Virus record (IMG/VR): IMGVR_UViG_3300025151_008080
Span: 1 to 64,000 of that record
Direction: 5' to 3' (one strand)
Length of the DNA: 64,000 bases
DNA from: a virus
Shown: positions 2-37,385 of the stretch, piece after piece
How positions within the stretch are numbered: position 1 is the first letter of the stretch
Layout: the number at the start of each line of letters is the position of its first letter
Notes under the pieces: model-generated
Databases searched by the model: none
The model's input: only the letters and a program-made list of their open reading frames with translations
What the model was told of the DNA's origin: nothing
Made by a program: the position numbers and the translations under genes

Positions 2-208
2 ATCTATAATATTAGAAGCTTAGATACATCTAATCCTGTTGTGGCTGGGTTGTTGGGATATACCTATAATGGAGACTTTGGTCTAGATCATAAACCATCG
101 CAGCTGTTAGCAGACTTAATTGGTGCTCAACCAGATGAAGATGCAATAGAGCGTATCTTTTACAATACAAGTCAATTCAAGCGGATTATTAAAAGAAAGT
201 ATTGGTAA
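2..208 (+). CDS. C-terminal fragment of a gene cut by the window edge; possible DpdA-type guanine transglycosylase
   Basis: An open frame runs from base 2 to a TAA at 206-208, giving the last 68 residues of a longer protein. It starts with IRSLDTSNPVVAGLLG and ends in a basic tail (KRIIKRKYW). The Arg-Ser-Leu-Asp-Thr-Ser-x-Pro element and a later KPSQLLADLI resemble C-terminal parts of TGT-like phage proteins as I remember them; this is not a firm family match. The context supports it: the stop codon shares its A with the ATG of a formyltransferase, and queF, an Nmad1 gene and a kinase follow. If correct, the enzyme would exchange guanine in DNA for a 7-deazaguanine base. The catalytic part lies outside the window, so the call is inference. 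Confidence 0.4.
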   Translation: MYNIRSLDTSNPVVAGLLGYTYNGDFGLDHKPSQLLADLIGAQPDEDAIERIFYNTSQFKRIIKRKYW

Positions 209-783
209 TGAAGTGGGTTGCGTTCTTTAGTCAAACTGGTTCAGAGATAGTAAATATCTCTAAAAAACTTAATAGATGGCCTGATCTTGTTGTTACGAAT
301 AAACAAGAAAGTGAATCAACTAATATAAATCTAGTGTACCACTATAAAGACGGTGGTATCGTTACCCTACCTAAGTGGCCAGATATTACGGACTACTTTA
401 GGGCTGCTGACGCTCTTAACTATTCTATCTTAAGAGAAGAGTGGAGAGAGAATGTATTTGTTACTCTACACGGTTATCTAAGAATATTACCTGCAGGGTT
501 TACTAAAGCGTCAAATATTTATAATGGCCATCCTGGAGCTATTGAGCAATATCCTGAATTAAAAGGATTCAACCCTCAAAAGAAAGCATGGGATGGTAAA
601 TACGAGAAGGTAGGATGTGTTATCCATGAGGTAACACCAGAGCTCGATGATGGTCCTGTTGTATCTTCAGTGTTAATTGATAACAATTTTAACACATATG
701 AAGAGCTTGAGAGTGCGCTACATGACGAATCAACAAAACTGTGGATAGATTTTCTAACCTTGAATCTAAAAAACAAGAAATAA
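208..783 (+). CDS. PurN-like formyltransferase, candidate dPreQ1 formyltransferase (DpdN-like)
   Basis: This 191-residue protein has the formyltransferase N-terminal fold of glycinamide ribonucleotide transformylase. It shows the conserved Asn-Gly-His-Pro (N106, H108) and the later ELDDGP with D147; these match the PurN catalytic trio Asn106, His108, Asp144 in order and spacing. The N-terminus (FFSQTGSE) resembles the PurN phosphate loop. The ATG at 208 is chosen over the TTG at 202 because it gives a TAATG overlap with the upstream gene. The neighbours are base-modification genes, not purine biosynthesis genes. A phage dPreQ1 formyltransferase (DpdN) has been described for 7-deazaguanine DNA, so formylation of an aminomethyl-deazaguanine is likelier than a role in IMP synthesis. 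Family is confident; substrate is inferred. Confidence 0.75.
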   Translation: MKWVAFFSQTGSEIVNISKKLNRWPDLVVTNKQESESTNINLVYHYKDGGIVTLPKWPDITDYFRAADALNYSILREEWRENVFVTLHGYLRILPAGFTKASNIYNGHPGAIEQYPELKGFNPQKKAWDGKYEKVGCVIHEVTPELDDGPVVSSVLIDNNFNTYEELESALHDESTKLWIDFLTLNLKNKK

Positions 784-5325: not shown

Positions 5326-5343
5326 CGTTTCCGTACGTGTTTT

Positions 5344-6000
5344 TTATATCTTTTGGATAAAGGCAATGATTTTTTCTGTAAGGTAATCATTGACGTCTTT
5401 CTTAGGTAGGTTGTTTAAACTATACTCAAAACCATCATATAGCTCTTCGAACTCCCCTTTCTTATTTAAAATCCATTGTTTTGACTCAAGTATACCGTTA
5501 ACAAATGCATCTGAATACGAAGGATCAGCAACACAATCAATAGCAATTAACTTTACATTTGATACTTTACCTACGTCTCCTTCTTGTTGTATTTCGCCTA
5601 ATGCTCTTGTTGACATACCAACACTGCAACCATCTTTAATTAAACTCTTTACGATTTGACCGCATGGTGTACTCAAGACCTTACTCTTACCAACAAAAAT
5701 ATTACCCTCTTGTTTCAACTCTGTTAAAATGTGGCAAGCCCGTTCCAGGTCTACCTCAGCAGCAGTAGGGTGATTTAACTCTCCCATAGCTCGTTTCGTG
5801 TTGATCATTTCATCAGTATAACGATTTACTTCTCGTTCCATATCAGAACGCTCATAAATACGCTTGTTCTTATTTACATCGTCTGTCTTTATCATCGGAC
5901 CAACGATATGAAGAGTAGGTTCCGATTTATTATTCTTTTCTTCTAAGACATAATCAAACTCAGATGGATCAGATTTTTCTACAAGTAACTTGAATGACAT
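5344..6000 (-). CDS. 21: Prohead core protein protease (T4 gp21-like)
   Basis: The 218-residue protein is a serine protease of the T4 prohead type, which cleaves capsid, scaffold and internal proteins after (L/I)-x-E during head maturation. It carries GELNHP with the candidate catalytic His77 and VGMSTRALG with the candidate nucleophile Ser130. The N-terminal GPMIKTDDVNKNKRIYE block, where the substrate-binding region begins, is also typical. It precedes the core, scaffold and capsid genes as in T4. Confidence 0.92.
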   Translation of the reverse strand: MSFKLLVEKSDPSEFDYVLEEKNNKSEPTLHIVGPMIKTDDVNKNKRIYERSDMEREVNRYTDEMINTKRAMGELNHPTAAEVDLERACHILTELKQEGNIFVGKSKVLSTPCGQIVKSLIKDGCSVGMSTRALGEIQQEGDVGKVSNVKLIAIDCVADPSYSDAFVNGILESKQWILNKKGEFEELYDGFEYSLNNLPKKDVNDYLTEKIIAFIQKI

Positions 6001-6009
6001 AGCGTTATA

Positions 6010-7853: not shown

Positions 7854-9616
7854 GTTGGAAGCGCTGAAGTTTCCCCTCCCGGGGTAGGAGTTGGTTCTGG
7901 TATATCACTATCCGGTACATCATCGCCACCTGTAGGACCCATATCTGGCGGTACATCTCCTGCAGGAGCACCGGGTGCGGTCCCAGCATCAGCACCAGGC
8001 GCACCACCACCAGCGGCCCAATCTGCACCACCACCTCGTATTTGTTCTATTTCATGCTGTAAAGCAGCGTCCTTACGAAGCCATTCTCTATTAGCCTTAA
8101 TTTGCTCATCCGTCCAACCTAAGTACTCTTTCTGACTATATTGCTTGGATATAGATTCATTTTGAGTCATCGTATTGAAGTTATTAGCCTTCAAGTCTAA
8201 TATTTGTTGTTTGCGTAGCTCGAAATAATTACGTGGAGGAGTAAACATTAAGTCAAACGAATTTTCTCTTAATTCAAACTGTCTCCAAAGTTTTTTGAGC
8301 TTTAAATGAGTAATAAACGCTTCTTTTATACCAGAGGCAAATTGAGACTGTAATCTAACTACAAAGTTTGCAAACTTTAATTCTTCTCTTAAAACGTTTG
8401 CGTCGGCGCTATATTGAGACGTTTCGGACTCTACCCTATTAGTAGGTACCTTAAGAGCTTTATAAAGTTTTTTAACAAAATAATTTAAGTCTTGGAGCTC
8501 ACCTAAGTTTTGACCACCGGGTAATGTTGTTACTTCTGTACCGGTACTGCCTTCCCTCTTAGGAAACCAATAAGCATCAAGTATTGATTGAGGGTTAAAT
8601 GAATTAACTCTGTTATCACCATCAAGACTAAATGATTTCTTACTCCAGTAATTTTGCATTAACTTTCGTATATAACCTTCTGCTTTTGGAGGGCTCATTT
8701 GGCCAACATCAACGTTGAATACTAAGCGTTCTGGAGCTCTAACTAGTCTATATATAATAATAGAATCTTCTATAAGAGATAATTGTCTATAAGCTCTTCT
8801 AGCATTTTCAATAAAAGGAATTCTAAATGTTCTATTTTCATTCCATGTACCAGAATTAACATATGTTACCTGATTTTTTTCTAACGGAATAAAGTCTTTA
8901 TCTTGTAAACCAGAATAATTTTGTTCATCAGCATCTTTATGATGTTTAGCCTTTCTTAACAAATAGGCTTTAATATGCATATTTTGAAAATTGTCATATA
9001 CAGGGTCAATCGCCTGGGTAGGGACGTTTATAACACCTAGTATACCTTCTTCAATATGCTTATCATGTATAATATTTTCAAAGTAAAGCTCACCATCAAC
9101 TAATAAAGATCTTATATACTCCCAAGCTCTTTCTTTAAAATCAAATAAGTTAATAAATTTATAAAATTCATCTCTCATTTGTTTTGATATTAGTGGGTCG
9201 AATTCTTTATCATTTCTAAGCTTTAGATCAATCATTCTTCCGTGATCGTCTTCATTTAAAAACTCATCACAAATTTCATCTAACGCATCAGCTACCTCGG
9301 CGAATTGAGCCATTACTCTATAATCTCTTAGACGGCGATATTTGTCTACATCTAAGGTAGCATACATTAATTCGTTATATGCTCTATCTGCTAAAAAGGA
9401 ACCTACTGGTTGAGAAGACTCAGGTACTTTCGGAGCTATAATAGAATGCTGAGCTAGTAACTCTTTGCGAACCGACCCTGCTTTATAAAAGCTTTTAAAT
9501 TTTGGGTTATCTTGTGTAACATCATCAATAATAGATGCAGGAGATCTATACGGAAGATTACTCGAAATAAACTTCTGTAAACCTCTACCAAATGTACCTT
9601 TTTTTCCGTCGTCCAT
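7850..9616 (-). CDS. 20: Portal vertex protein (T4 gp20-like)
   Basis: The 588-residue protein is the dodecameric portal through which DNA enters the head. Diagnostic parts are ELMYATLDVDKYRRLRDYR near residue 85, the DALDEICDEFLNED block, LLVDGELYFENII, and RAPERLVFNVDVGQMSPPKAEGY. About 70 C-terminal residues form a Gly/Pro/Ala/Asp-rich flexible tail. It ends inside the promoter-like motif of the downstream neck gene. One base separates its start from the gene before it. Confidence 0.95.
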   Translation of the reverse strand: MDDGKKGTFGRGLQKFISSNLPYRSPASIIDDVTQDNPKFKSFYKAGSVRKELLAQHSIIAPKVPESSQPVGSFLADRAYNELMYATLDVDKYRRLRDYRVMAQFAEVADALDEICDEFLNEDDHGRMIDLKLRNDKEFDPLISKQMRDEFYKFINLFDFKERAWEYIRSLLVDGELYFENIIHDKHIEEGILGVINVPTQAIDPVYDNFQNMHIKAYLLRKAKHHKDADEQNYSGLQDKDFIPLEKNQVTYVNSGTWNENRTFRIPFIENARRAYRQLSLIEDSIIIYRLVRAPERLVFNVDVGQMSPPKAEGYIRKLMQNYWSKKSFSLDGDNRVNSFNPQSILDAYWFPKREGSTGTEVTTLPGGQNLGELQDLNYFVKKLYKALKVPTNRVESETSQYSADANVLREELKFANFVVRLQSQFASGIKEAFITHLKLKKLWRQFELRENSFDLMFTPPRNYFELRKQQILDLKANNFNTMTQNESISKQYSQKEYLGWTDEQIKANREWLRKDAALQHEIEQIRGGGADWAAGGGAPGADAGTAPGAPAGDVPPDMGPTGGDDVPDSDIPEPTPTPGGETSALPT

Positions 9617-14623: not shown

Positions 14624-14651
14624 ATAATAGGGTATCTAGAAAAAAAATCAA
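14624..14651 (-). promoter_or_regulatory. Early sigma70-like promoter of the DUF366-like gene
   Basis: Minus strand: TTGATT (14646-14651), 16-base spacer, TATTAT (14624-14629), then six bases to the ATG at 14617. The predicted transcript begins at or next to the start codon. Confidence 0.65.
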
Positions 14652-15328
14652 TAGGTAAATGTTTTATTTTCAAAATGAAGAATTTTGCCAGAAAAGGTAT
14701 AACCTTTAGAGTGGTTTGGGTTAAAGCAATATCTTTGATCTAATTGTTTTGTTTTTTTGTTAAGTATAAATTTATTGAAATGAGATTCGTCATGCCATCT
14801 AGCTATAATATTTTTATTTAAATCTGTTTTGATATTATTGTCTATCTCTGCAGCCATATTTAAAAATATTTTAGACGTACTACCAAAAAAACAACCCTGA
14901 CAATATTTACCTTTTAGTTCCGACGTATACTCTACATATGCAGTAGAATCTTTATTATTAAATTCATATGGGCCTATCTCTTCTTTAGAATAATGATAAT
15001 GAGACGTGGTAACAATTTCGTCGTTGGCTGGTAAGATTTCATCTTCAAGATAATCTACTACCTCCATATCACTATCTATATAAAAAACATAATCATAAGA
15101 TGAAATTATATTTGATACAGTATTAAAATAATTAAAACGCAACAATGTGGTTAAAGGCCATGGAAGGTGAATAATTGGTTTACAAATATCAACAGCTGTG
15201 TTAAATTGATCAGAAAACAAAAGTATATTAGTTGATACAGATGTAGTGTATTTTTTAATACTTTTAATTAATGTGGATATATATCTATTGTGTTTGTTAG
15301 TAGATATTATTAAAAATAAAATTTTCAT
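14648..15328 (-). CDS. Glycosyltransferase family 6 (ABO/alpha-1,3-Gal type)
   Basis: The 226-residue protein has GT6 hallmarks: an N-terminal strand MKILFLIIST, the DSD metal motif at 85-87 (YIDSDMEV), CQGCFFGSTSKIF, and the diagnostic WHDESHFNKF at 178-187. GT6 enzymes transfer Gal or GalNAc in alpha-1,3 linkage from UDP-sugars with retention. There is no membrane anchor, so it is the soluble catalytic domain. A second GT6 lies at 16753-17457, and two GT8-like genes sit between them. The acceptor is unknown. Confidence 0.85.
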   Translation of the reverse strand: MKILFLIISTNKHNRYISTLIKSIKKYTTSVSTNILLFSDQFNTAVDICKPIIHLPWPLTTLLRFNYFNTVSNIISSYDYVFYIDSDMEVVDYLEDEILPANDEIVTTSHYHYSKEEIGPYEFNNKDSTAYVEYTSELKGKYCQGCFFGSTSKIFLNMAAEIDNNIKTDLNKNIIARWHDESHFNKFILNKKTKQLDQRYCFNPNHSKGYTFSGKILHFENKTFTY

Positions 15329-15345
15329 TTAAATTTTTGCTAATT

Positions 15346-16074
15346 TTAATATTTCCACTTTGTATATTTATTTATTTCGGTTTTATATTTCTCATAATGC
15401 AACCCGGTGAAGTGATATAGATACCCGCGCATATGTTCACTAGCAATATCGGGATCTATATAGTTCCATTTTTTATTAATAAAGGTCAACCTATTTTTTA
15501 AAAAATACATAAAAGCTAAATTAAGTAACGCCTGCTCTACTTGATGTATATTTTTATATTTACCGTTTATATTATTCAAAGCAGCTGTAATTTTTTTAAA
15601 AACATACATATGATAGATAGGGGAAAATAAAAACATACCAGCGTTAAAAAAGTTATCTTTGTAAGATTGTTTATCAAATTTTATTCCTAAAGCATGTGCA
15701 CATACGTCCAGCCACGGTAAACATAGTTGGGTGTTTTTAAATTCTTCTTTTTGGTCTTTTGTTAAAAATGATTGCTGCATATCCTTAACAACATATATAT
15801 TTTTTTTATTACTAAAAATATCGAAAGGATTAGGTGTTGTACTATTTATAATAATATCTGTATCAATGTATAGGCATTGCTTATAACTAGAAACTAAACT
15901 AGGTAAAAATAGTTTAGTGAACATATTATGAAAGCCAGCTGGTTGTATGGGTTGTTTAAAAACGATATACTCACAACCCCATCTTTCACACGCGGCGTTA
16001 ACACTATCATAAGCATTTTGACTATGAGTATAACCTTCACTAGGTATAAAAAAAGATATAACGACATTATTCAT
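15346..16074 (-). CDS. GT8-like glycosyltransferase
   Basis: A 242-residue GT-A enzyme with DTD in LYIDTDIII (about residue 75), FFNAGMFLFS, EQALLN and a C-terminal YLYHFTG, the pattern of GT8 enzymes (retaining galactosyl or glucosyltransferases). The N-terminus contains AACERWGCEYIVF, shared with the neighbouring 229-residue gene, so the two are tandem paralogues. It overlaps that gene by eight bases. Confidence 0.75.
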   Translation of the reverse strand: MNNVVISFFIPSEGYTHSQNAYDSVNAACERWGCEYIVFKQPIQPAGFHNMFTKLFLPSLVSSYKQCLYIDTDIIINSTTPNPFDIFSNKKNIYVVKDMQQSFLTKDQKEEFKNTQLCLPWLDVCAHALGIKFDKQSYKDNFFNAGMFLFSPIYHMYVFKKITAALNNINGKYKNIHQVEQALLNLAFMYFLKNRLTFINKKWNYIDPDIASEHMRGYLYHFTGLHYEKYKTEINKYTKWKY

Positions 16075-16756
16075 TCCATTTAAAACTCTTTAAAGCTGTT
16101 TTTAAGATTTTAGGATCACCACCAGTAAAATGATATATTGAATCATTAATAGGTTTAGTAAGATCTGGGTTAATGACATTCCATTTTCTAGTTATATATG
16201 TTATTAATAATTCTTTTTGTATAATATAATTTAAGAGAGCTTGTTCTTTATGAGATGAACCATTAATACTATATTTCTTAATAAGAGAAGAATATTTTTC
16301 AAACATAGCACTTATACTTTTATCAAATAAAATAAAACCACTATTGAAAAAATTCAAAACAAAATTATCTGGTAAGTTTAAACCATCGTTAATAAATTCC
16401 TCTTTGTATCTTGTTAGATAATCTTTTATATACGCGTGAAGCTTAGCTGTCTCTTTATAACCAAGGACATATAATTCATAATGACTATCTCTTACAGTAA
16501 CAAACGGTTGTTTAAATTTAAACGGAGAATCACATTTAGAACTAATTAACATATCTGAATCAATAAGTAAAGCACGTTCATAATCCGAGTTTCGTAAAAT
16601 ATTAAACTTATTCCAACTCGGGAAAGAGTTGGGAAATTTATTTTCATCAACAATTACATACTCACAACCCCATCGTTCACATGCATGTAAATGACTGCTT
16701 TTTGCATTTTCGCACAACACATTATTAATGTTTAAAGTAATTAAAGCAGTCTTCAT
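16067..16756 (-). CDS. GT8-like glycosyltransferase, paralogue of the preceding gene
   Basis: The 229-residue protein has LIDSDMLISS as its DxD motif, FFNSGFILFDKS, KEQALLNYI, and SIYHFTGGDP near the end. HACERWGCEYVIV near the N-terminus matches the paralogue at 15346-16074. It overlaps the GT6 gene upstream by four bases. Donor and acceptor are unknown; retaining chemistry is expected for GT8. Confidence 0.75.
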   Translation of the reverse strand: MKTALITLNINNVLCENAKSSHLHACERWGCEYVIVDENKFPNSFPSWNKFNILRNSDYERALLIDSDMLISSKCDSPFKFKQPFVTVRDSHYELYVLGYKETAKLHAYIKDYLTRYKEEFINDGLNLPDNFVLNFFNSGFILFDKSISAMFEKYSSLIKKYSINGSSHKEQALLNYIIQKELLITYITRKWNVINPDLTKPINDSIYHFTGGDPKILKTALKSFKWNE

Positions 16757-17457
16757 TGTTCGTTTAGATTAGGTTTTAAAATAGATATTATTTTTGTATT
16801 CGGTAGTAACTCTCCCATAGCTTCTGGTCGTGCATATATTCTTGGTATGGTTTTTAAAGACATGTCTTGTATATATCTATTAAGATGAGACTCGTCATGC
16901 CAAATAGCAACAATATCATTACTTAAATCTATATCTATATTTTTCTCTATTGTTTCTGACATGTTAAAAAAGTTCTCGTATAAACCTCCATATAGACACG
17001 CTTGATGGTATGGTACTTTATATATGTCTTCAACAAATGCTGTTGATTTAGAATTAGTTTCATAGGGGTATAATTTTATTTCTTTACCTTCATGAAGCCA
17101 ACCACAATGAGTAACACAACAAATCGGTTTCTCTTTTGTTGGTAATAAATCTTCCGAGCTGGTTACATAACCTATACATTTTAGATCCGCGTCGACCCAA
17201 AATATTATATCACAATTAAAATATTCTTTTGTTAAATTAATAGCTTTATTTTTGTAGAGAGTGGAATATGGCCATTCATAAAAAGGAAAGTATATATTAT
17301 TAGAAATCGTTTGATGGGTAAATGTTTTATCATCAGTAAGAATTATAAATTGTTTTTCATATTGAGGTAGAAAATATTTCGCAAAAGAATCTAACATACT
17401 CGGTAGGAAGTCAACATAACTACCAGTACCCATTGTAACAATACCTATTTTACTCAT
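16753..17457 (-). CDS. Glycosyltransferase family 6, second copy
   Basis: A 234-residue GT6 enzyme with DAD at 89-91 (FWVDADLKC), YHQACLYGGLYENFFNM, and AIWHDESHLNRY at 184-195. The WHDESHLN core is nearly identical to vertebrate ABO transferases. It differs clearly from the other GT6 in this island, so the pair may have different specificity rather than being a recent duplication. The ATG is one half of a CATATG whose other half is the start of the rightward gene at 17458. Confidence 0.85.
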   Translation of the reverse strand: MSKIGIVTMGTGSYVDFLPSMLDSFAKYFLPQYEKQFIILTDDKTFTHQTISNNIYFPFYEWPYSTLYKNKAINLTKEYFNCDIIFWVDADLKCIGYVTSSEDLLPTKEKPICCVTHCGWLHEGKEIKLYPYETNSKSTAFVEDIYKVPYHQACLYGGLYENFFNMSETIEKNIDIDLSNDIVAIWHDESHLNRYIQDMSLKTIPRIYARPEAMGELLPNTKIISILKPNLNEQ

Positions 17458-18633
17458 ATGATATGTGATTATTTACAAGGGAAAATAAAAAAGCACGTAA
17501 TGCTTAAGTCCTCTAAATGTATAAACCGATACAACTGGACGTTTTGGGGAGATAAGGCCCTTGTAAGAGTAGAACCAAAAAATCTATACAGTAAAATAGT
17601 ACAATATAAGTTTAATATAGATAAACTTACTCTCACTAACCCAAAAACTATACTACAAGATAAAACATTTAGCTATGAAGACCCGAGATTGATATCTTAT
17701 AATGATTTTACATATGTAAAATACAATGTGAAAAAACAAGAGTGTTATTTTATGAAAAATAACCAGCAAATGACCAAAGGACATGCTTGGGAGAAAAACT
17801 GGCAGTTTATAACAGATAAAAAATATATTTATAAAATAAAACCGCTAGTTATTAAAGACAACACTAGTCGAGTTAAGTTTCGTTATACTATGCCTCATTG
17901 GTTAGAAGGTTTTTTTAAAGACAAACAAGATGCAAATGAAGTTCAGGTAAACACAAATGCAAAAGCATTTGGTAAGACGTACTTATATAGATTAAGTAGT
18001 AATGTTTTTAGTATAAACAACAGAAATTTTATATTTTTTCATACTGCTGCTGGAGACTTAGGTCATTATGATTATTATCAAGGTGTAATAGAGCTTGATT
18101 ATGATTTTTTACCATTAACATACTCTATTGAACCATTTTTTAACCCACCACCATTAGATAACCCATATAAATTTAAAAAGAATGAAAATAAATGCGTATA
18201 TGTTACTAGTGTTCGAATTATAAATGATAAAACATATATATGTGCAGGTATAAATGATTGTGAGTGTGCTTTATTTACTTTAGATAATAATACATTTGTT
18301 GATTGGTATGATAAATACAAAGATTTCGTAAAAGAAGAACAAACATCAAAAAATAGCTATATTACCACTATAAAAACAGAGTATGAAACAGAGTATATAA
18401 CAGAGACTCTAGATTCAGTTACGTCTATTAATACATCTACAGAGCAGCAAATAACTAACGTGCAGCAAAACACTCAAATAAAAGAAAATAATATAACTAA
18501 TATCGATAATATACAACAAGTAAGTAATTTAGAAAAACCTACTAAAATAAAAGAAAGTAATATATCTAATATTGATTATATAAGACCGGAAAACTTAGTA
18601 AGATACACACAAATAAAAAAGCCTAAGTATTGA
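17458..18633 (+). CDS. GH130/beta-propeller-like sugar enzyme with repetitive tail
   Basis: The 391-residue protein has elements of five-bladed propeller glycoside phosphorylases or hydrolases such as GH130: SYEDPRLIS near residue 75, EKNWQFI near residue 115, and YSIEPFF. Residues from about 300 onward are a Thr/Asn/Ile-rich, low-complexity tail with a duplicated 14-residue unit (KIKESNISNIDYI type). The ATG at 17458 abuts the divergent GT6 start; an internal Met at codon 15 (17500) could be the true start. It runs 11 bases into the convergent GT4 gene. The enzyme class is tentative. Confidence 0.5.
   Translation: MICDYLQGKIKKHVMLKSSKCINRYNWTFWGDKALVRVEPKNLYSKIVQYKFNIDKLTLTNPKTILQDKTFSYEDPRLISYNDFTYVKYNVKKQECYFMKNNQQMTKGHAWEKNWQFITDKKYIYKIKPLVIKDNTSRVKFRYTMPHWLEGFFKDKQDANEVQVNTNAKAFGKTYLYRLSSNVFSINNRNFIFFHTAAGDLGHYDYYQGVIELDYDFLPLTYSIEPFFNPPPLDNPYKFKKNENKCVYVTSVRIINDKTYICAGINDCECALFTLDNNTFVDWYDKYKDFVKEEQTSKNSYITTIKTEYETEYITETLDSVTSINTSTEQQITNVQQNTQIKENNITNIDNIQQVSNLEKPTKIKESNISNIDYIRPENLVRYTQIKKPKY
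18472..18582 (+). repeat. Two 42-base direct repeats in the tail of the propeller-like gene
   Basis: Unit 1 is 18472-18513 and unit 2 is 18541-18582; they are near-identical (for example CAAATAAAAGAAAATAATAT versus AAAATAAAAGAAAGTAATAT), with a 27-base spacer, and a shorter third partial copy follows near 18606. The copies are in frame and encode a repeated Ile/Asn-rich segment. Confidence 0.75.
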
Positions 18634-19591
18634 GAATTTCTTCTGTTAATTTTTTACTATTTTTTCTATTTACGTTTTTTACAAAATCTCGTACATCATT
18701 AGAATTAATAGTATTTTTAAAGTGCTCCCACTCTTGAGTTTTTTCTAATAACTCACCTTCATCAACAACCCAACCAAACTGGTGTATTAGGTGTTTAGGT
18801 CTTTGGAAAAAAGGGTATGTAGAATACTTATTGTTATCAGATGTGGTAAATGTAGAGTTAATAAATACAACTAATTCTGGGTCTAACCACTCTGTATACA
18901 TAGGGCAATTGGAAACATAAGCTATTGCACCAGTAGATAAACCTTCATATAAAAAATGACCCCACCCTTCATAATAACTCACACATAAATGAAATCTATT
19001 TGAATTTAATTGCTTTGTTACTTCTTCTTTTGGTAAAAAATCAGCAATAAAGTTAATGTTGTCTTTTAGTGGGGTTTTATTATAATGATTTAAACTTTCG
19101 ACAATTGTCAGAGGTAGAGTATTCTTATTAAAGGTATTTATTACTCGTTCGGTACCTTTTTGATAGCTTTTACCTACAAGATGAAAGAAGGTATCAGTTT
19201 TATCTATTTTTGAATCATATTTATCATATGAAACAAAACCACAGTTAACGATATTACGATTATGCGCGGCAAGTAGTTGTTTTGCGAACTCAGATTTAAC
19301 GATGATTTTATCAAATAGATATAACTGATGTACTTCTAAACCTATCCATTCTTCGTTAGCTATAAATACATTTTTTTTATTTCTATCTAAATACTGACCA
19401 TAGAAATTTTGTATAAAAATACCAACGTCATATTCATTGTATGGATTATACTCAGAGTCATTTCCTATATTATGCTCAAAGTATACTATATCTATATCAT
19501 AAAAAGGTTCTAATAGATCATATAGTAAATTTACATCAGCTATAAGACCGACCCCTGTATTAGATGTATAAATACAAGCAGTCTTTTTCAC
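18623..19591 (-). CDS. GT4-type (GT-B) glycosyltransferase
   Basis: The 322-residue protein shows a C-terminal nucleotide-sugar half typical of GT-B enzymes: FHLVGKSYQKGTERVI, then FHLCVSYYEGWGHFLYEGLSTG with the E-x7-E type motif, and YVSNCPMYTEWL. The N-terminal half carries EEWIGLEVHQLYLFD. It is an island gene on the minus strand, ten bases after a small hypothetical gene. No donor can be assigned. Confidence 0.75.
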   Translation of the reverse strand: MKKTACIYTSNTGVGLIADVNLLYDLLEPFYDIDIVYFEHNIGNDSEYNPYNEYDVGIFIQNFYGQYLDRNKKNVFIANEEWIGLEVHQLYLFDKIIVKSEFAKQLLAAHNRNIVNCGFVSYDKYDSKIDKTDTFFHLVGKSYQKGTERVINTFNKNTLPLTIVESLNHYNKTPLKDNINFIADFLPKEEVTKQLNSNRFHLCVSYYEGWGHFLYEGLSTGAIAYVSNCPMYTEWLDPELVVFINSTFTTSDNNKYSTYPFFQRPKHLIHQFGWVVDEGELLEKTQEWEHFKNTINSNDVRDFVKNVNRKNSKKLTEEILNT

Positions 19592-19601
19592 AAGTTAAAG
19601 C

Positions 19602-20003
19602 TTATCGCAATAGGTTCTCTTTATACCCTAGCATTTGCCATTGCTCGGTATCAGCTTCCCAATAAACAACAATACCGATTGGGAGCTCAGCGGTATCTAC
19701 AAACTCATCATCTACAATACCCTTTTTAAATTTAGCGGTTTCAACTAGAAAAACCTTTTCTTTAAAATATACAGCTCTAGTTTTTCTTTTATATTTGGTT
19801 TCATAAGCTTCTTTATCAGTAGACTTAGTCCAGTCCCATGTAAGTGGGTTCCAAAAAATAGTAAGGTTTTCTTTTACTTTAGCTTGTAGAGTTTTTGTAC
19901 CTAAAAATGTAATTTCTTCTACATCTTTTTCTCCGGGGTTATATTGCACTCCGTTAAAAAAGATCTCTGATATAGTATATGTTTCTTCTTGTACTTTCGG
20001 CAT
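19602..20003 (-). CDS. Hypothetical protein
   Basis: A 133-residue protein starting MPKVQEETYTISEIFFNG. This ATG (20001-20003) is preferred to an upstream in-frame start at 20042 because the latter would overlap the divergent radical SAM gene and an 18-base palindrome. The sequence is beta-rich with several Trp (FWNPLTWDW, VVYWEADTEQW). No family was recognised. It is divergent from the radical SAM gene. Confidence 0.5.
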   Translation of the reverse strand: MPKVQEETYTISEIFFNGVQYNPGEKDVEEITFLGTKTLQAKVKENLTIFWNPLTWDWTKSTDKEAYETKYKRKTRAVYFKEKVFLVETAKFKKGIVDDEFVDTAELPIGIVVYWEADTEQWQMLGYKENLLR

Positions 20004-20006
20004 AGT

Positions 20007-20024
20007 CGTATAATTAATTATACG
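20007..20024. promoter_or_regulatory. Perfect 18-base palindrome between divergent genes
   Basis: CGTATAATTAATTATACG is its own reverse complement and fills the whole gap between the ATG at 20003 (minus) and the GTG at 20024 (plus). It contains TATAAT on both strands. It could be a shared operator or paired minus-10 boxes; no good minus-35 was found. Confidence 0.45.
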
Positions 20025-21076
20025 TGAAAAAAGATCTTTCAACTAAATTCTGCGACCATCCATGGACATTTTTAGAGATACAAGAAAAAGGTCTATATAA
20101 TTGTTGTCCACGATGGGTAAACCATAACAAAATAGGAGAATTAAATCCTACTATTGATTTCATGGAAGAGTGGAACAGTAAGAAAAGTAGAGAATTCCGA
20201 CAATCTATTTTAGATGGATCATTTAGTTTATGTAATCATGAAGAATGTCCTAAAATTCAAAACGGTACATTACCAGATAAAAAAGATATACTTGCAGGCA
20301 GATATGGTGATGAGTTAAAGTTTATTGTTGAGTTTGGAATGGATGTCGCTCAACCACCAAACACAATAAATTTATGTTATGATAAATCTTGTAATTTAAG
20401 ATGTCCAACATGCAGGAAAAATCTTATTCAATACACTGAAAAAAACGAACCTCAAAAATACAAAAATACTATGATGATAAATAAGCGCTTACTGCGTATG
20501 ATTCATAGTAAACCACATAAAGTGCATTTAAATATTACTGGTTCTGGAGATCCGTTTGGTTCTCCATCGTTTTTTGAATTAATGAAAAAGGTAGAACCGG
20601 CAAAAAACCCACAAGTATCATTTACACTACAAACTAACGGAGTGTTATTTGATGAGAGCAGGTGGGAGAAACTTAAAAATATACATAAACAGGATATACA
20701 CGCTATCATAAGCTTAGATGCTGGTATAAAAGAGCACTACGATTTAGTGAGAGTAGGTGGAGATTGGGACAAACTAATGAAAAATCTTCACTTTATAGCT
20801 AAATTAGATCTCAAGTCAGTAAGATTAGATATGGTCGTTCAGAGAAATAATTATAAAAGTATTCCTGAGTTTATTCAAATAGCTCAAGCTCATAATTTTG
20901 ACTCATATACATCGAGAGTATATAACTGGGGTACCTTTACTCAACAAGAGTATAATACTCACAACATATTTGATCAAAATCACCCAGAACATCAAAACTT
21001 TTTAAAGATTTTAAACCAAGATTACCACTATCATAAACACGACTGGGGTAACTTAACAGACTTTATTACAGACTAA
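20024..21076 (+). CDS. Radical SAM protein with N-terminal SPASM/twitch-type cluster
   Basis: The 350-residue protein starts with GTG. Residues 10-75 hold a SPASM/twitch-like pattern (C10-x2-PW, C27-C28, WNS, C70, C75) placed before the radical SAM core CNLRCPTC with Cys 123, 127 and 130. The SAM-binding strand follows (NITGSGDPF). Such twitch-first proteins are known in marine phage and bacterial islands. The substrate is not known; its place at the head of a rightward block of transferases and methyltransferases suggests modification of a sugar or peptide acceptor. Confidence 0.8.
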   Translation: MKKDLSTKFCDHPWTFLEIQEKGLYNCCPRWVNHNKIGELNPTIDFMEEWNSKKSREFRQSILDGSFSLCNHEECPKIQNGTLPDKKDILAGRYGDELKFIVEFGMDVAQPPNTINLCYDKSCNLRCPTCRKNLIQYTEKNEPQKYKNTMMINKRLLRMIHSKPHKVHLNITGSGDPFGSPSFFELMKKVEPAKNPQVSFTLQTNGVLFDESRWEKLKNIHKQDIHAIISLDAGIKEHYDLVRVGGDWDKLMKNLHFIAKLDLKSVRLDMVVQRNNYKSIPEFIQIAQAHNFDSYTSRVYNWGTFTQQEYNTHNIFDQNHPEHQNFLKILNQDYHYHKHDWGNLTDFITD

Positions 21077-22147
21077 ATGAAAATAGCAGTACTATTATAC
21101 GGGCAGCCAAGATTTTGGGACTTAAGCTACGAAAGTATTATACAAGAAACAACATTTGAAGGATGTACCACAGATTACTACTTTCACTTCTGGGATAAAA
21201 TAGGGTATAACGGCTCAGATTCAGAAAACATATTAACAGATGAAATAAAAGAAAAAATTGTTAGTGTATATAAACCTAAAAAATACGAGTTTACTGACTA
21301 TGAACCACTTGTAGCAGACACTGAAAAGGTATACAAACATGTAGATATAGCGAGAAAAGAAATTGAAAATTTAAATCTTCAAAAGACTATTTTTGAGACA
21401 TGTGAGCCAGGTCATTTATCGTATTATACTGGTCAGTTTACGTCTCTTGAGAGAGTAGCAAATTTAGTAGAAGAAGAATATGATTATATATTTCGAATTC
21501 GTACGGACTTAATCTTCGCAACTCCTGATTTATATGATACAAAAAGAGATTATTTTTATGATAAAAGGTATTTTTATGATAAAATGTTAAATGGTCAAAA
21601 AGGTGTGTTTTGTAAATACGGAGATCTACAAATATGGGAAGGAGCAGAAGATAAATCCGGTAATAATACTGATCACCAACCGAAATCTAGAAAAACATAC
21701 GAGAGTATTACATATCTGAATAATAATTTTTACGGTAAACGTCGTAACTTAGGTATAAGTGATAGATACAAATCAGATACACAATATTTACATATAAAAG
21801 ACTGGTGTATGCTAGGTAGCGCAACAGAAATGCTTAAGTGTATGAAGAGTTATATACAAACAATCATAGATATGGTGTATAAAAGTCAGCAATTGCTTAT
21901 TAAAAATAATATTGATGTTAATTGGTCTGCAGGAGAGCTTGTCTGTGGAGAATCTCTAGTAAAGGAAAAAGTAAATGCAATAGAGTTAGGTTATCAATAT
22001 TATCACAATATGATTATACCTAATAGATTTTTAAAAATAGCTAATAAACATACTAAACAATGTATACTTGATAGACCTCATGTAAGAGTTTTAGCAGACT
22101 CGGGTATATCTATGAAAAAGCAATATAAAAAGATTATAGATAGATGA
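21077..22147 (+). CDS. Putative glycosyltransferase of a GQPRF-type family, copy 1
   Basis: A 356-residue protein starting MKIAVLLYGQPRFWDLS, with YYFHFWDKIG, YYTGQFTSLERV and IFRIRTDLIF (the R-x-R-x-D-L strand), and KDWCMLGSATEM. The same layout recurs at 23854 and 25582, and in a diverged form at 26604. The DL after the strand could be a divergent DxD site. I know this family only as putative transferases of phage and giant-virus islands; donor and acceptor are not known. It starts right after the stop of the radical SAM gene. Confidence 0.55.
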   Translation: MKIAVLLYGQPRFWDLSYESIIQETTFEGCTTDYYFHFWDKIGYNGSDSENILTDEIKEKIVSVYKPKKYEFTDYEPLVADTEKVYKHVDIARKEIENLNLQKTIFETCEPGHLSYYTGQFTSLERVANLVEEEYDYIFRIRTDLIFATPDLYDTKRDYFYDKRYFYDKMLNGQKGVFCKYGDLQIWEGAEDKSGNNTDHQPKSRKTYESITYLNNNFYGKRRNLGISDRYKSDTQYLHIKDWCMLGSATEMLKCMKSYIQTIIDMVYKSQQLLIKNNIDVNWSAGELVCGESLVKEKVNAIELGYQYYHNMIIPNRFLKIANKHTKQCILDRPHVRVLADSGISMKKQYKKIIDR

Positions 22148-22698
22148 GTAAAGAGATACGAGATATAATATACGCGACTTGTATATCTATAAAAAGCATA
22201 TGTTTGGAGGTAGGAGTACATAGAGGTATAAATGCAGAAAAAATTGCTAAACATAACCCTCAAAAACTATACTTAATAGATTGTTGGGACTGTCAAAGAA
22301 CTAATTTAGAAGAAAAAAATATTATAATTCATTCTCACGCGGGGGCAAATAATGAAAAACAAACCAACTGGTATAATGAAGTAAAAGAAAAATTTCAAAA
22401 TAATACAAATGTAGAAATAATAAAAGAATATTCTCATGTCGCGTGTGAGAGTTTTGAGAATAACTTTTTTGATTTTATATATATCGACGGTTTACATGAT
22501 TATAGCTCTGTGCTACAAGACCTCAACATGTGGAAAAATAAACTCAAAACCACAGGGATAATACTTTGTGATGATTATACCGAAAACTCTAAAAGAGGGT
22601 ACGGTGTAATACCAGCAATAGAATCTTTCTTAAAAAATAATACAAAGTTTACCGGACAGCTACTCGGGCAGCAGCTTTTTTTATTAAAACAACAATGA
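22144..22698 (+). CDS. Class I SAM-dependent methyltransferase
   Basis: A 184-residue Rossmann methyltransferase: LEVGVHRGINAEKI (motif I), LYLIDCWD (acidic motif II), FFDFIYIDGLHDYSSVLQDL and GIILCDDYTE. The FIYIDG-H-Y-x-x-V-x-x-DL pattern is the Methyltransf_24 type, often O-methyltransferases of sugars. It overlaps the preceding gene by four bases (ATGA). A paralogue follows at 23357. Confidence 0.8.
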   Translation: MSKEIRDIIYATCISIKSICLEVGVHRGINAEKIAKHNPQKLYLIDCWDCQRTNLEEKNIIIHSHAGANNEKQTNWYNEVKEKFQNNTNVEIIKEYSHVACESFENNFFDFIYIDGLHDYSSVLQDLNMWKNKLKTTGIILCDDYTENSKRGYGVIPAIESFLKNNTKFTGQLLGQQLFLLKQQ

Positions 22699-23375
22699 TA
22701 GATATAATTTATAGTTATTATAATCAGTACAATACACTATCAACACAAGTACAGCTTTTAAATTCATACTCTAAAGAAACAAAAAACACAGTAAATCTTA
22801 TATATGTTGATGATAACAGTACTCAGACTGCTAAGCAATATTTAGAAAAACTAAAATTAACATATTCTCTATACTATATTACTGAGAATGTAGGTTGGAA
22901 TAACGGTGGAGCAAAAAATTTAGGTATATACAACTCAAAAAGTGACTGGAAAGTTGTGTTAGATATAGATATGTTTTTAACGGATAATCTCTTGCAAGAG
23001 ATTTTTTTGTATCCAAAGAGGGAAAATTGTATATACAAGTTTCTTACAAATAAAATAGAAAGTACTAACCCTATAATACATAAAACATACCCCGGAGCGC
23101 TAATGATACATAAAAACGCAGTAGAAAAAATTGGTTATTTTGATGAAGATTTTTGCGGAAACTACGGGTGCGAGGATAAAGCATATTTTGCGAAAGCTAG
23201 ACACTACAATTTTAAAACTGTAAAGTTGAGAACAGAAAATAAGCTTATATTTTTAGACGGTTTACCACGAAAAAAATCTCCTGAACCTATAAACGTGAAA
23301 TTATTCGATAGTAAAAATAAAAATAAAGAGTGGTCGACAGACATCTTACGATTCAAATGGAAGAAAATAATATAA
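22695..23375 (+). CDS. GT2-family glycosyltransferase
   Basis: The 226-residue GT-A protein has the N-terminal fold of GT2: IIYSYYNQYNTL, YVDDNSTQTAKQYL, ENVGWNNGGAKNLGI and the DxD-type VVLDIDMFLT, then FDEDFCGNYGCEDKAYF with a probable catalytic acidic residue. An inverting galactosyl- or rhamnosyltransferase is possible. It overlaps the genes on both sides (4 and 19 bases). Confidence 0.78.
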   Translation: MIDIIYSYYNQYNTLSTQVQLLNSYSKETKNTVNLIYVDDNSTQTAKQYLEKLKLTYSLYYITENVGWNNGGAKNLGIYNSKSDWKVVLDIDMFLTDNLLQEIFLYPKRENCIYKFLTNKIESTNPIIHKTYPGALMIHKNAVEKIGYFDEDFCGNYGCEDKAYFAKARHYNFKTVKLRTENKLIFLDGLPRKKSPEPINVKLFDSKNKNKEWSTDILRFKWKKII

Positions 23376-23857
23376 TATATAGAGAAGATATACCAAGAGC
23401 TATAACTAATACTAACCCTATAGGGATTGAATTAGGAGTCGCAGGAGGCCGTTTTAGTGTAAAGCTAAATAATAAACACTCTTTCAAAAAGTTTTATTGT
23501 GTAGATAAGTGGAATGATAAACATAATATAAAAGAGTATTATGATGCACTTCATCGTTTGAATAAAGATAATATATATGTATTAAGAATGTCTTTTGAAG
23601 AGGCTCATACATTATTCGAAGATAACTTTTTTGATTTTATATATATTGACGGTTATGCTCATACAGGGCAAGATTCAGGAGTAACAATTAATAGCTGGTA
23701 TAATAAACTTAAAAAGGGCGGAGTTTACGCGGGACATGATTATAATATAGAAGAATGGCCGAAAAATGTAGAACATATAAATAATTTTTTAACACAAATC
23801 GATAAAAAACCAAACCTCACAACAGAAGCCTGGGCTTCGTGGTGGATAAAGAAATGA
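23357..23857 (+). CDS. Class I SAM-dependent methyltransferase, paralogue
   Basis: A 166-residue methyltransferase with IGIELGVAGGRFSVKL (motif I), FYCVDKWND, NFFDFIYIDGYAHTGQD and GGVYAGHDYN. The ATG at 23357 is chosen over one at 23330 because the extra nine residues carry no family similarity and would enlarge the overlap with the GT2 gene. It is a paralogue of the gene at 22144-22698 with the same FFDFIYIDG core, pointing to a duplicated transferase plus methyltransferase cassette. Confidence 0.78.
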   Translation: MEENNIIYREDIPRAITNTNPIGIELGVAGGRFSVKLNNKHSFKKFYCVDKWNDKHNIKEYYDALHRLNKDNIYVLRMSFEEAHTLFEDNFFDFIYIDGYAHTGQDSGVTINSWYNKLKKGGVYAGHDYNIEEWPKNVEHINNFLTQIDKKPNLTTEAWASWWIKK

Positions 23858-24894
23858 GACTAGCAGTACTTATATACGGACAACCTAGGTTTTTTGAAAA
23901 AACCGCTGATATAATAAAAAAAGAATTTGAAATACCTGGTTGGCAAACAGATTTTTTTATACATAATTGGGAAAACGTCGGGCATACCCCAGCATGTGAC
24001 GAGAATAATGATTACGACGAAAAATGTAACCAGGTAATTATACAAGAAAAACTAAATCCTATTACATATAATATAGAGAGTTATGATATAATATACGATT
24101 ATGCGAAAAAATATATTGAATGTATTAAGCAATTAACAAATAGAAAAGTACCGTACGGGAATAACTATAATTTAGAGCGATACTTCTTCGGTCAACATAT
24201 AAGCACACAAAGGTGTTATGAGTCTATTAAGTTATATGAAGATATAAATAATTTTCAATATGATATAATTATAAAAGCAAGAACAGATATAATTTATACC
24301 CCAAGTTATTGCTACAACACCGAAGAAGAGTACGTAGATCATAAGAAAGCAAACTATAGTGTATTAATTAATGACAGACCGGTGTGTCACGCGAATGGTA
24401 TTAGATATAATACGTTTAATAACACAGAAAATAAATGGGAAGCGAATCCGCTGAAATATTTCTATGAAAACAAGATGTCGCCAATGAATTTACCAACAAA
24501 TAAATGGTATAATGAAGTAGAATATAAATGGGGATATTGGGATCGGCTTTTAATAAATGATTGGTCTTTAGTATGTAATAGATTAGCAGCAGAGGTTTAT
24601 TATAATAAGTGGTTTGATAATTTATTTTTGACTCTTGGTAAAGATTTACTACATAATAATTTGAAAACTAGATGGTTATCAAGATCAGAACACACTCTTC
24701 AAGGCGAGTTAACAATAAACAATAAAGTAGAGTGTAAGTGGATGGGTCGTAGAAGAGATAAAAAAATTATCTCTGCAGAAAAAATTAAAGAGGATGTAAC
24801 AACATCTGATAAAATATTACTTTATCGAAATGATTGCATAAAAACATTACATAATAAAATACGGGAAATGTTTCCTGATAAAATAATAAGATGA
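23854..24894 (+). CDS. Putative glycosyltransferase of the GQPRF-type family, copy 2
   Basis: A 346-residue protein beginning MRLAVLIYGQPRFFEK; FFIHNWENVG, FFGQHISTQRCYESI and IIIKARTDIIYT match copies 1 and 3 in order. LLINDWSLVCNR is the counterpart of the KDWCMLGS block. The ATG at 23854 overlaps the methyltransferase stop as ATGA. Function as in copy 1; not proven. Confidence 0.55.
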   Translation: MRLAVLIYGQPRFFEKTADIIKKEFEIPGWQTDFFIHNWENVGHTPACDENNDYDEKCNQVIIQEKLNPITYNIESYDIIYDYAKKYIECIKQLTNRKVPYGNNYNLERYFFGQHISTQRCYESIKLYEDINNFQYDIIIKARTDIIYTPSYCYNTEEEYVDHKKANYSVLINDRPVCHANGIRYNTFNNTENKWEANPLKYFYENKMSPMNLPTNKWYNEVEYKWGYWDRLLINDWSLVCNRLAAEVYYNKWFDNLFLTLGKDLLHNNLKTRWLSRSEHTLQGELTINNKVECKWMGRRRDKKIISAEKIKEDVTTSDKILLYRNDCIKTLHNKIREMFPDKIIR

Positions 24895-25619
24895 GAGAAG
24901 TATTAAAAAGATCATTTGAAAAAATTTATTGTATAAATTTAAACGATAGAGTAGATAAGTGGGAGAAATGTCGTGCAATTTTCAAAAAACATAACATTGA
25001 AGATTTAGTACAGCGGTGGGAAGCAACAGAACCTAAAAATAAAAACAAAAAAGGGGATTGTGTTTACGCATGCGCGCACAGTCATGTTAGTATTATTACC
25101 CATGCATATGAAAATAATATAAAAAATATATTAATATTAGAAGATGATGTAGAATTTGTAGATGATTACAACGGTATATCAGCAGAACATATATTAAACG
25201 CTGGAATGTCTCAGATAAAGGAAAAAAACATATCATGGGATTTATTCTTTTTAGGGTATAGTTTTAAATTACGAGAGTTTTGTAATTATAGTCAATTAAC
25301 CCCTAATGTATTTCAAAGTACGAACCAATTACAAACTCATTGTTACGCAGTTAATTCTAATATATACAAAAAAATAATAAATGATAATGTCCCTGGTAAA
25401 GCTGCTATGGATGAATACTATGGTATATACCTTTCTCATAAAGTAAACGCATTAAATTTGTTTCCACTAATTACTTACCAAAGAAATGATATTTTATGCG
25501 ATATAGGTAACAACGTCCGTAAAGATAGAATTAAATTATACAACAGAGAAATACAGTTTTGGGAGAAAAAATTATATGGGTATGAAAAAGATTGCAGTAT
25601 TAATACACGGTCAGCCTAG
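24891..25619 (+). CDS. GT25-family glycosyltransferase
   Basis: The 242-residue protein matches GT25 (LPS beta-1,4-galactosyltransferase LgtB / LpsA type): FEKIYCINLNDRVDKWEKC at the N-terminus, CAHSHVSIITHAYEN, and ILILEDDVEFVDDY with the acidic motif. The C-terminal part carries THCYAVNSNIYKKI. GT25 enzymes build lipooligosaccharide in Proteobacteria, so this gene was probably taken from a Gram-negative donor. It overlaps the preceding gene by four bases and the next by 38. Confidence 0.85.
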   Translation: MREVLKRSFEKIYCINLNDRVDKWEKCRAIFKKHNIEDLVQRWEATEPKNKNKKGDCVYACAHSHVSIITHAYENNIKNILILEDDVEFVDDYNGISAEHILNAGMSQIKEKNISWDLFFLGYSFKLREFCNYSQLTPNVFQSTNQLQTHCYAVNSNIYKKIINDNVPGKAAMDEYYGIYLSHKVNALNLFPLITYQRNDILCDIGNNVRKDRIKLYNREIQFWEKKLYGYEKDCSINTRSA

Positions 25620-26601
25620 ATTTTTAAATTATACCTGGAAATTTATAAAAGAAGAGTATACCGTACCTAACTATGAAACTTACTATTTTGGTCACTTGTG
25701 GGAAAAAGTAGGTTTCGTACCCGATGACTGTCGTAATACTAATTATATACAGCATAATATAGATAAACAAATATTAAACAATTTAAATGATGTATCAATT
25801 ACTAATTATGATATTTTAGATGCAACAACAAAAGAGTTTCATCCTAAAATAAGCAGATATTTACATAATAAAGTAAAAAGTTTTGAGAATAGACTAGATG
25901 TAGTAAAAAAATTAAGGTATAGATACGGACAACATGTGAGTAAACAATTATGTTATGATGTTTGTTGCAATTTCGAAAAAAATAACGATATAACTTTTGA
26001 TATAATAGTTGTAATAAAAACCGATTTTGTCTATAAAAGAAAAAACTGTTATAAAAAACCTGAAAATTACGAACTTGAAAAAATAGAACTATATGATGAC
26101 GTAGAATGTAACTCTAATATTGTTAAAAATGTTACACTATGTTATGAAGAATGGCAATCATATACAAAAATGACAAATAAATACAATGTAACATCCTCAA
26201 CTGAACTACCTGAGCATACTATTTACAATAGATTATTAATGAACGACCATTGGTTAATGGGTAGTAGAGATGCAATGAGTATATATTGTACTAAATGGTT
26301 TGAAACTCATGAATTATTACTGCAAGAACTAAAAGATCAAAACTTTGACCAGAATTATGTAAATATAATTCCTAAAAAATACGGATGCCCCTTTATGATG
26401 CAAGGGGAAATAGGTTTAAAAAACAATATTACACTAAAACGAACCAACAAACGATTTAAACGAGTAGTGTTGCTTAATAACTGTAAAGAAAAATTCTTAC
26501 CTAATGGTAAAAACGGTAGAGAAGTAATACATAATCAACTTAGAGATATACAAACAGAGCAATTGTATATAGAGAATAGATTACAAGAAATATTTTCTTA
26601 G
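25582..26601 (+). CDS. Putative glycosyltransferase of the GQPRF-type family, copy 3
   Basis: A 339-residue protein beginning MKKIAVLIHGQPRFLNYT with YYFGHLWEKVG, YGQHVSKQLCYDV, IIVVIKTDFVYKR and LLMNDHWLMGSRDAM. An alternative ATG two codons earlier (25576) exists; the one used here lines up with the other copies. It overlaps the GT25 gene by 38 bases. It ends the rightward block and converges on the gene at 26604. Confidence 0.55.
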   Translation: MKKIAVLIHGQPRFLNYTWKFIKEEYTVPNYETYYFGHLWEKVGFVPDDCRNTNYIQHNIDKQILNNLNDVSITNYDILDATTKEFHPKISRYLHNKVKSFENRLDVVKKLRYRYGQHVSKQLCYDVCCNFEKNNDITFDIIVVIKTDFVYKRKNCYKKPENYELEKIELYDDVECNSNIVKNVTLCYEEWQSYTKMTNKYNVTSSTELPEHTIYNRLLMNDHWLMGSRDAMSIYCTKWFETHELLLQELKDQNFDQNYVNIIPKKYGCPFMMQGEIGLKNNITLKRTNKRFKRVVLLNNCKEKFLPNGKNGREVIHNQLRDIQTEQLYIENRLQEIFS

Positions 26602-26603
26602 CT

Positions 26604-27317
26604 CTATCTAAAGCTAAATTTGAGCGGTATATTACCATGTACTCGGACATTGCGAGAAATCATATGTTCGTAAATAATTGAATGCTCACTACCATCTAAT
26701 TTAGGTACTTTATCTAAACAAAGAGGGAATAAGTCAAACACAATATCAAACACATAAGGCCTAGCCAACATAACACACCAATCAGTATGAGTGTTACCTC
26801 GCTCGTCTGATCTAATCCATGGAACAAACAAAATATTTGTACAGTTTCTTTTATTGTGAGTATCATATTTAGATAATTTTGTTAAAACGTAATCTATATT
26901 AGATATAAAATCTTTTAAAACTATATCACACCGAGATCTAATAACAAAATCATACACCCGGTTAGTCTTTTTACGCAAAAGGTGAGACTCTCGCATACTA
27001 TAAAATTGAGATAAGCATGTATAATTAGTTGTTTTAATTTTATTAACAAAATCTGCTGAAAGTGCATCACGAAATTTAATGTGCTTTTTAGCGAAAAAAT
27101 TAATTACAGGATCTAATACTTGTTGACTGTCAATAATATAATCAACCGGTTTGTATAAATTAATATACTCTTCTGCTAACGAGGACTCCCATGTGTGTAT
27201 ATAGGTATCAATATTAATACCTTTAGAACGCCACTTATCTAATGTTTTTAGGGTATCAATGCCGTCTTTATAACTATCAGCTAGGCCAGATATACATAAA
27301 GCGATGTTGTTATTCAT
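26604..27317 (-). CDS. Diverged member of the GQPRF-type transferase family
   Basis: A 237-residue protein with IALCISGLADSYKDG, IDTYIHTWESSLAEEY, LYKPVDYIID, LSQFYSMRESHLL and YDFVIRSRCDIVLKD. The order (N-terminal strand, HTW, KP, YS, R-x-R-x-D-x-x-L) is that of the three rightward copies, but shorter and without GQPRF. Probably a glycosyltransferase. It shares a short leftward block with the 248-residue unknown upstream (one base apart). Confidence 0.5.
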   Translation of the reverse strand: MNNNIALCISGLADSYKDGIDTLKTLDKWRSKGINIDTYIHTWESSLAEEYINLYKPVDYIIDSQQVLDPVINFFAKKHIKFRDALSADFVNKIKTTNYTCLSQFYSMRESHLLRKKTNRVYDFVIRSRCDIVLKDFISNIDYVLTKLSKYDTHNKRNCTNILFVPWIRSDERGNTHTDWCVMLARPYVFDIVFDLFPLCLDKVPKLDGSEHSIIYEHMISRNVRVHGNIPLKFSFR

Positions 27318-27318
27318 T

Positions 27319-28065: not shown

Positions 28066-28598
28066 TATTTTTTAATACCCCAAAAATATAAGTCTGTTAT
28101 GTGTTCGTTTACAGAAAACGCATAACTATTAAAACTGTTATCAACATTAATAACATTTCTCACATCGTTTTCAGTTAGATTTTTATAATAGTTAGCCCAC
28201 TCGTTAGTAAGTAGCGGAGCATTCTCAGGAGTATTGTTAATTGTACCATGTTCATGACGGTTTGTTGATGCGCAAGTAAATAAAAACAACCCACCAGGTT
28301 TTAATAAAAAATTTACAATATGTTTTAAGCTTTCTTGATAAAACATATCATGCTCAAAGCACTCTGTACTTATAACAACATCAAATTTTTTATCTGGATT
28401 ATATTTGTGAGTAGGAGACACAACATCTACGTTTTTTCCAACACCAACATCAATACCAATGTATGTACATCTTTTGAATAGGTATCTGTTGGTACCATTT
28501 ACATCTAAAGACCCACAATCTAAGACGGTTTTTTCTACAAAAAAAGTAGGATGTTGTTCCCTTACTAATTTACAAAAATTTTTTTGTTCACGATGCAT
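28065..28598 (-). CDS. Class I SAM-dependent methyltransferase (Methyltransf_11 type)
   Basis: The 177-residue protein has VLDCGSLDVNGTNRYLF (motif I variant), YIGIDVGVGKNVDVV (motif II), FDVVISTECFEHD (motif IV) and HIVNFLLKPGGLFLFTCA (motif V/VI). The TECFEHD signature is typical of small-molecule or sugar methyltransferases. It overlaps the GT32 gene upstream by 11 bases. Confidence 0.82.
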   Translation of the reverse strand: MHREQKNFCKLVREQHPTFFVEKTVLDCGSLDVNGTNRYLFKRCTYIGIDVGVGKNVDVVSPTHKYNPDKKFDVVISTECFEHDMFYQESLKHIVNFLLKPGGLFLFTCASTNRHEHGTINNTPENAPLLTNEWANYYKNLTENDVRNVINVDNSFNSYAFSVNEHITDLYFWGIKK

Positions 28599-37379: not shown

Positions 37380-37385
37380 ACATCT

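Follow-up and report, generated by a model that had tools for sequence, protein, structure and literature searches.

Among isolated phages, the closest counterpart of the locus described here is found in Flavobacterium phage vB_FspM_immuto_2-6A (NC_055915; here, immuto), in which genes for a DpdA, a formyltransferase, a kinase, and QueF follow one another in the same order as in our window, that is, the 64,000 nucleotides (bases 1 to 64000) taken from a linear, 70,759-base IMG/VR virus record. The arrangement of DpdA with a formyltransferase is already present in this isolated phage, where it is annotated with DpdA. The formyltransferases of the two phages are 44% identical and their QueF proteins 45.9% identical, although immuto is another type of phage, has a small open reading frame (ORF) between DpdA and the formyltransferase and none between the formyltransferase and the kinase, and carries FolE, QueD, and QueE nearby, with a PRA-PH gene upstream. 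Its deazaguanine gene region (locus L028) also contains a phosphoribosyltransferase gene (1e-8) at positions 8881 to 9276. Cui 2023 reportedly names DpdN, a proposed dPreQ1 formyltransferase associated with DpdA and with the making of preQ1, together with DpdA3, and its abstract is said to conclude that insertion is post-replicative. DpdA3 is the family name for the DpdA of Campylobacter phages such as CP220. Phages of the CP220 group carry dADG, and a modified-dGTP route has been proposed for Campylobacter phages (PMC6884629). In the DNA of Campylobacter firehammervirus, guanine replacement is complete (PMC10273834). When the DpdA of phage 9g was expressed in E. coli, it placed dPreQ0 into plasmid DNA (PMC6884629).

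The window starts at base 1 of the record, with no sequence left of the first gene, and the locus occupies this end on the plus strand. It begins with the C-terminal 68 codons of a predicted DpdA3-type DNA-guanine transglycosylase, cut by the contig end (positions 2 to 208), followed by a predicted DpdN-type formyltransferase of 191 amino acids (208 to 783), a 117-amino-acid protein (793 to 1146), a P-loop kinase of the AAA_28 family (1148 to 1702; phrog_2107, labeled thymidylate kinase), and a preQ0 reductase, QueF, of the full-length two-module type (1686 to 2600; QueF_N, 4.4e-31; QueF, 1.4e-16). An earlier note on this DNA had treated positions 2 to 783 as one span, which in fact holds two genes, but it was right that the formyltransferase overlaps the upstream gene by one base (ATG at 208 and TAA at 206 to 208, giving TAATG) and that queF belongs to the same operon: both genes lie on one strand, with two short genes in between, and queF is followed by a terminator-like hairpin (2609 to 2636, strand unassigned) that separates it from a convergent capsid gene. 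Two such hairpins were found in the stretch, against 1.0 expected in shuffles, and the reading as a terminator is supported by its position after queF. The phage looks T4-like, since gp23-, gp22-, and portal-type proteins, as judged from their sequences, come next on the minus strand. Further along, between 14648 and 33600, there is a long series of glycosyltransferase-, methyltransferase-, and sugar-nucleotide-like ORFs. The earlier proposal that insertion, formylation, and preQ1 synthesis are brought together in one operon is still the best reading, with the TGT fold of a homologue of the upstream protein and the non-PurN clade of the formyltransferase (see below) in its support. The operon is very probably a 7-deazaguanine DNA-modification cassette whose product, as we infer, would be 7-(formylamino)methyl-7-deazaguanine in DNA.

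The upstream gene is truncated here by the left end of the contig, and its full length could be read solely in relatives. When viral contigs were scanned with the formyltransferase as query, 25 loci were obtained, in 24 of which one protein family, usually 265 to 280 amino acids long, was encoded 5' of the formyltransferase; the remaining locus (L012) begins inside the formyltransferase gene. No gene separates the two in 23 of these 24 relatives, and the other (L025) has a DUF6445 gene at 5333 to 6004, possibly an extra tailoring step. The 68 residues in the window are near-identical to the C terminus of this protein in the closest relatives and match by tblastn the immuto gene annotated as DpdA. 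Sequence profiles from Pfam and the PDB gave no identification of the gene, and its identity came from structure alone. The earlier note had suspected a DpdA-like C terminus and called for structure prediction, which we ran on the full-length homologue from locus L007 (AlphaFold, mean pLDDT of 91.9). The model has the TIM-barrel TGT fold: 32 of its 33 PDB matches at an E value of ≤0.001 were TGT or DpdA, ranked first, with the best being TGT at 2e-8 and with DpdA 7ui4 also matched. The suspicion, against which the note would have counted the lack of a TGT fold, was therefore borne out in the full-length L007 homologue. This homologue shares 36.9% identity with the CP220 DpdA3 over 96% of its length, but the stretch of CP220 that we read lacked a formyltransferase and QueF. 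Residues D57, D88, Q119, and D216 are invariant in the family alignment and, by their order, would correspond to TGT motifs. The window fragment covers the motif around D216 (RSLDTSNPV), and the position of this motif makes the aspartate encoded at 23 to 25 the probable TGT nucleophile. The model supports the prediction that the upstream gene encodes a DpdA3-type transglycosylase that exchanges guanine. The window fragment also matched PHROG_19058 (8.8e-4), which is labeled "unknown function" and seems to represent DpdA3.

We then considered what accompanies DpdA. Downstream sequence of 3.5 kb or more was available for 71 DpdA loci, most of them related by descent and a few contigs counted as more than one locus; the kinase was found in 67, QueF in 67, and the formyltransferase in 48. 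The kinase thus accompanies DpdA more constantly than the formyltransferase does. A structure model of the kinase (pLDDT of 89.1) had the P-loop fold of the dNK/TMK group, with deoxyadenosine kinase, dTMP kinase, dNK, and dCK as its top Foldseek matches, while the best sequence-profile match was the NadR kinase domain (4e-6); from sequence alone, nucleoside, dNMP, and NadR-type kinases are inseparable. T4-type dNMP kinase (DNMK) was absent from 16 records, and the AAA_28 kinase could simply substitute for it.

Kinases of several families also lie beside or near DpdA3-like genes in other phages. In Campylobacter phage CP220, an AAA_28 kinase comes directly after the DpdA3-type gene, and in CC_R7 a diverged DpdA is found beside QueC with a kinase adjoining or near. 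In Bacillus phage BSTP12 and Weizmannia phage Youna2, a P-loop kinase-like ORF overlaps the DpdA-like gene; its family match is weak, and in sister records it is annotated as thymidylate kinase. Aeromonas phage Ahp1 combines a DpdA3-like gene with a kinase of the DNMK family (1.7e-17), and Chryseobacterium phage MA9V-3 combines one with an AAA_18 kinase (1.5e-7). No adjacent kinase was found for the DpdA-like genes of Brevundimonas phage StAshley, Rhizobium phage RHph_I1_18, and a Clostridiales MAG contig (L126), nor next to the DpdA genes of two DpdA1/DpdA2 controls. Phage 9g had no kinase-family match, and KVP40 has no annotated kinase near queF. The window kinase matched Campylobacter and Flavobacterium records only, while the window QueF matched 46 Vibrio phages, and none of these QueF-bearing Vibrio phages was among the matches to the kinase. 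Directly upstream of the CP220 DpdA3-type gene (locus L114, 7862 to 8893), there is also an HD domain fused to an AAA_33 kinase. HD phosphohydrolase was dropped as a general partner, being above the cutoff in CP220 only, among 11 records.

L126 was the single cellular-assembly match in a scan of genome contigs. It carries DpdA followed by the formyltransferase (37% identical), as part of a run of four consecutive genes between 182 and 4391 (MazG, DpdA-type, DpdN-type, and DNA polymerase I-like), and it is probably a prophage or phage contig.

The kinase may bear on where the base is exchanged. We put the chances at about even that DpdA3 works on finished DNA after replication, as concluded for other DpdAs, and that the kinase is an independent enzyme of the nucleotide pool. 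The modification of plasmid DNA by the 9g DpdA (PMC6884629) speaks for this, as do the TGT fold of DpdA3 and its match to 7ui4. However, it leaves unexplained why the kinase stays with DpdA in loci that lack the formyltransferase and why kinases from several families adjoin DpdA3-like genes. Alternatively, and we regard this as possible though somewhat doubtful, DpdA3 would take a deoxynucleotide or deoxynucleoside as its substrate for base exchange, the kinase would phosphorylate the product, with or without the formyl group from DpdN, and a polymerase would insert the modified dNTP, in analogy to the hydroxymethyl-dCTP of T4. In that case, 7-deazaguanine may replace all guanine during replication, and MazG-, PRA-PH-, or DUF1599-like neighbors would reduce canonical dGTP.

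Several observations favor exchange on nucleotides: the variety of kinases near DpdA3-like genes (in the marine T4-like phages, immuto, and the Campylobacter, Bacillus, Weizmannia, Aeromonas, and Chryseobacterium phages); a kinase fold nearest to deoxynucleoside and dTMP kinases; genes of NTP-pyrophosphatase type near the immuto DpdA and upstream of DpdA in L126; and the missing kinase matches in 9g and in the QueF-bearing Vibrio phages. The complete replacement of guanine in firehammervirus (PMC10273834) and the modified-dGTP route already proposed for Campylobacter phages (PMC6884629) point the same way. Against it, the kinase substrate is not fixed by sequence (nucleoside, dNMP, or NadR-type), StAshley, RHph_I1_18, and L126 have DpdA-like genes without an adjacent kinase, adjacency could stem from islands of nucleotide-metabolism genes, and the majority of the 71 loci are related by descent. 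Insertion after replication is, moreover, what Cui 2023 reportedly concluded. Taken together, the kinase neighbors suggest exchange at the nucleotide level before replication, against that reportedly published view, although adjacency is not proof. Two further arguments were dropped: an inability of the acidic DpdA3 to bind DNA, since the 9g DpdA is acidic too, and adjacency to DNA polymerase, which is also found beside the 9g dpdA. MazG and PRA-PH were searched for in the marine phages, and none was found. As for the 117-amino-acid protein (phrog_1485, 4.3e-9), its likeness to DUF1599 (Nucleotide modification associated domain 1) is weak, with matches in 6 of 15 family members (the best at 0.0023) and none for the window's own protein in the profile search. 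It had no PDB relative, and in locus L024 it is fused with the formyltransferase in a single ORF.

The formyltransferase (208 to 783) had been described in the earlier note as a PurN-like enzyme with the catalytic residues Asn106, His108, and Asp147. The match to Formyl_trans_N (3.1e-9) is above the Pfam cutoff, and the three residues (codons at 523 to 525, 529 to 531, and 646 to 648, plus strand) show no variation across the family alignment and correspond to the catalytic triad of PurN, as described. PurN shares the fold family and this Asn-His-Asp triad, but differs in the phosphate loop (SGNGSN or SGNGTN in PurN and SQTGSE in the DpdN type, with Glu13 invariant in the alignment), in the insertion that DpdN-type enzymes have after the HP(S/G) motif, in the C terminus, and in gene neighborhood. 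In the tree, a branch supported at 100/100 divided the 25 DpdN-type sequences from the PurN, Fmt, PurU, and ArnA proteins, although branches were long and references few (the E. coli proteins PurN, Fmt, PurU, and ArnA, one PurN encoded on an Acinetobacter contig, and two PurN-type proteins of cyanophages). Clustering with genuine PurN enzymes, which the earlier note had named as the outcome that would speak against its proposal, was thus not what we found. In addition, a search of 12 records with the formyltransferase found the AIRS family (PurM/PurL) in none of them, while it is present in P-SSM2, a phage with a PurN-type gene.

Given the co-occurrence with DpdA and the preQ1 (QueF) pathway, these comparisons of sequence support the prediction that the enzyme is a DpdN-type preQ1/dPreQ1 formyltransferase. 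We take it to be the DpdN that Cui 2023 reportedly proposed, on the basis of the abstract of that paper and of the synteny with immuto. In loci that lack the formyltransferase, DpdA, the kinase, and queF are contiguous, and whole-record searches of such records, up to 209 kb, found no PF00551 gene; for these reasons, we regard tailoring by the formyltransferase as optional. The predicted base is formyl-dPreQ1 in phages that have the enzyme and dPreQ1 in those that lack it. It is improbable that the enzyme acts on some other amine, for example, on a sugar nucleotide of the glycosyltransferase cluster at 14648 to 33600, its place in the operon being incidental: sugar formyltransferases do belong to the same fold family and the phage is rich in glycosyltransferase-like ORFs, but distant phages and L126 retain the association with DpdA in an operon, and ArnA is separated from the enzyme in the tree. 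That it is a phage PurN boosting purine synthesis in the host, as its mostly GAR transformylase PDB sequence matches and the presence of such genes in cyanophages might suggest, is highly improbable in view of the separate clade at 100/100, the altered phosphate loop, the missing AIRS family in the 12 records, and the constant DpdA/QueF neighborhood.

Genes for the preceding steps are found elsewhere on the contig. They encode a QueE-like radical SAM enzyme (36010 to 36753, minus strand; phrog_2076, 2e-46), QueD of the 6-pyruvoyl-tetrahydropterin synthase family (36921 to 37385, minus strand; PTPS, 2.2e-16), the type I GTP cyclohydrolase FolE2 (37451 to 38485, plus strand; GCHY-1, 4.9e-72), and the preQ0 synthase QueC (51732 to 52448, plus strand; 2.8e-59). 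FolE2, QueD, QueE, and QueC are thus all encoded along with QueF, which covers every step from GTP to preQ1. A second AAA_28 kinase (35247 to 35993, minus strand; 3.3e-12), possibly accessory, adjoins QueE and is also close to QueE in five large related records. Directly 3' of QueC lies a class II glutamine amidotransferase (52463 to 53107, plus strand; GATase_6, 7.7e-9), an arrangement that resembles a split Gat-QueC; this amidotransferase might turn the pathway toward a different derivative, possibly an archaeosine-type base. The family phrog_5949, labeled "GTP cyclohydrolase," matches the window QueF.

Gene order, protein families, the fold of the DpdA homologue, and the separation from PurN are direct observations, and a scheme for the cassette can be drawn from them. 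PreQ0 would be made from GTP by FolE2, QueD, QueE, and QueC and reduced to preQ1 by QueF, and the DpdA3-type transglycosylase would swap guanine for the deazaguanine. The enzyme at 208 to 783 would formylate the aminomethyl nitrogen of preQ1 or dPreQ1, presumably with 10-formyl-THF as the donor, and formylation might precede insertion or follow it. In phage DNA, the formylated base would probably protect against host restriction.

The DpdA-DpdN pairing of an isolated flavobacterial phage is thus extended to many contigs of T4-like phages, which supply many DpdN-type sequences for testing. The constant kinase partner makes it possible to test whether phages that replace all guanine do so on DNA or on nucleotides. 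If exchange does take place at the nucleotide level, a TGT fold thought to need nucleic acid would act on small molecules, which would provide an enzymatic route to 7-deaza-dNTPs and, for the phages, a new way of preparing modified DNA before replication by means of an enzyme with this fold.
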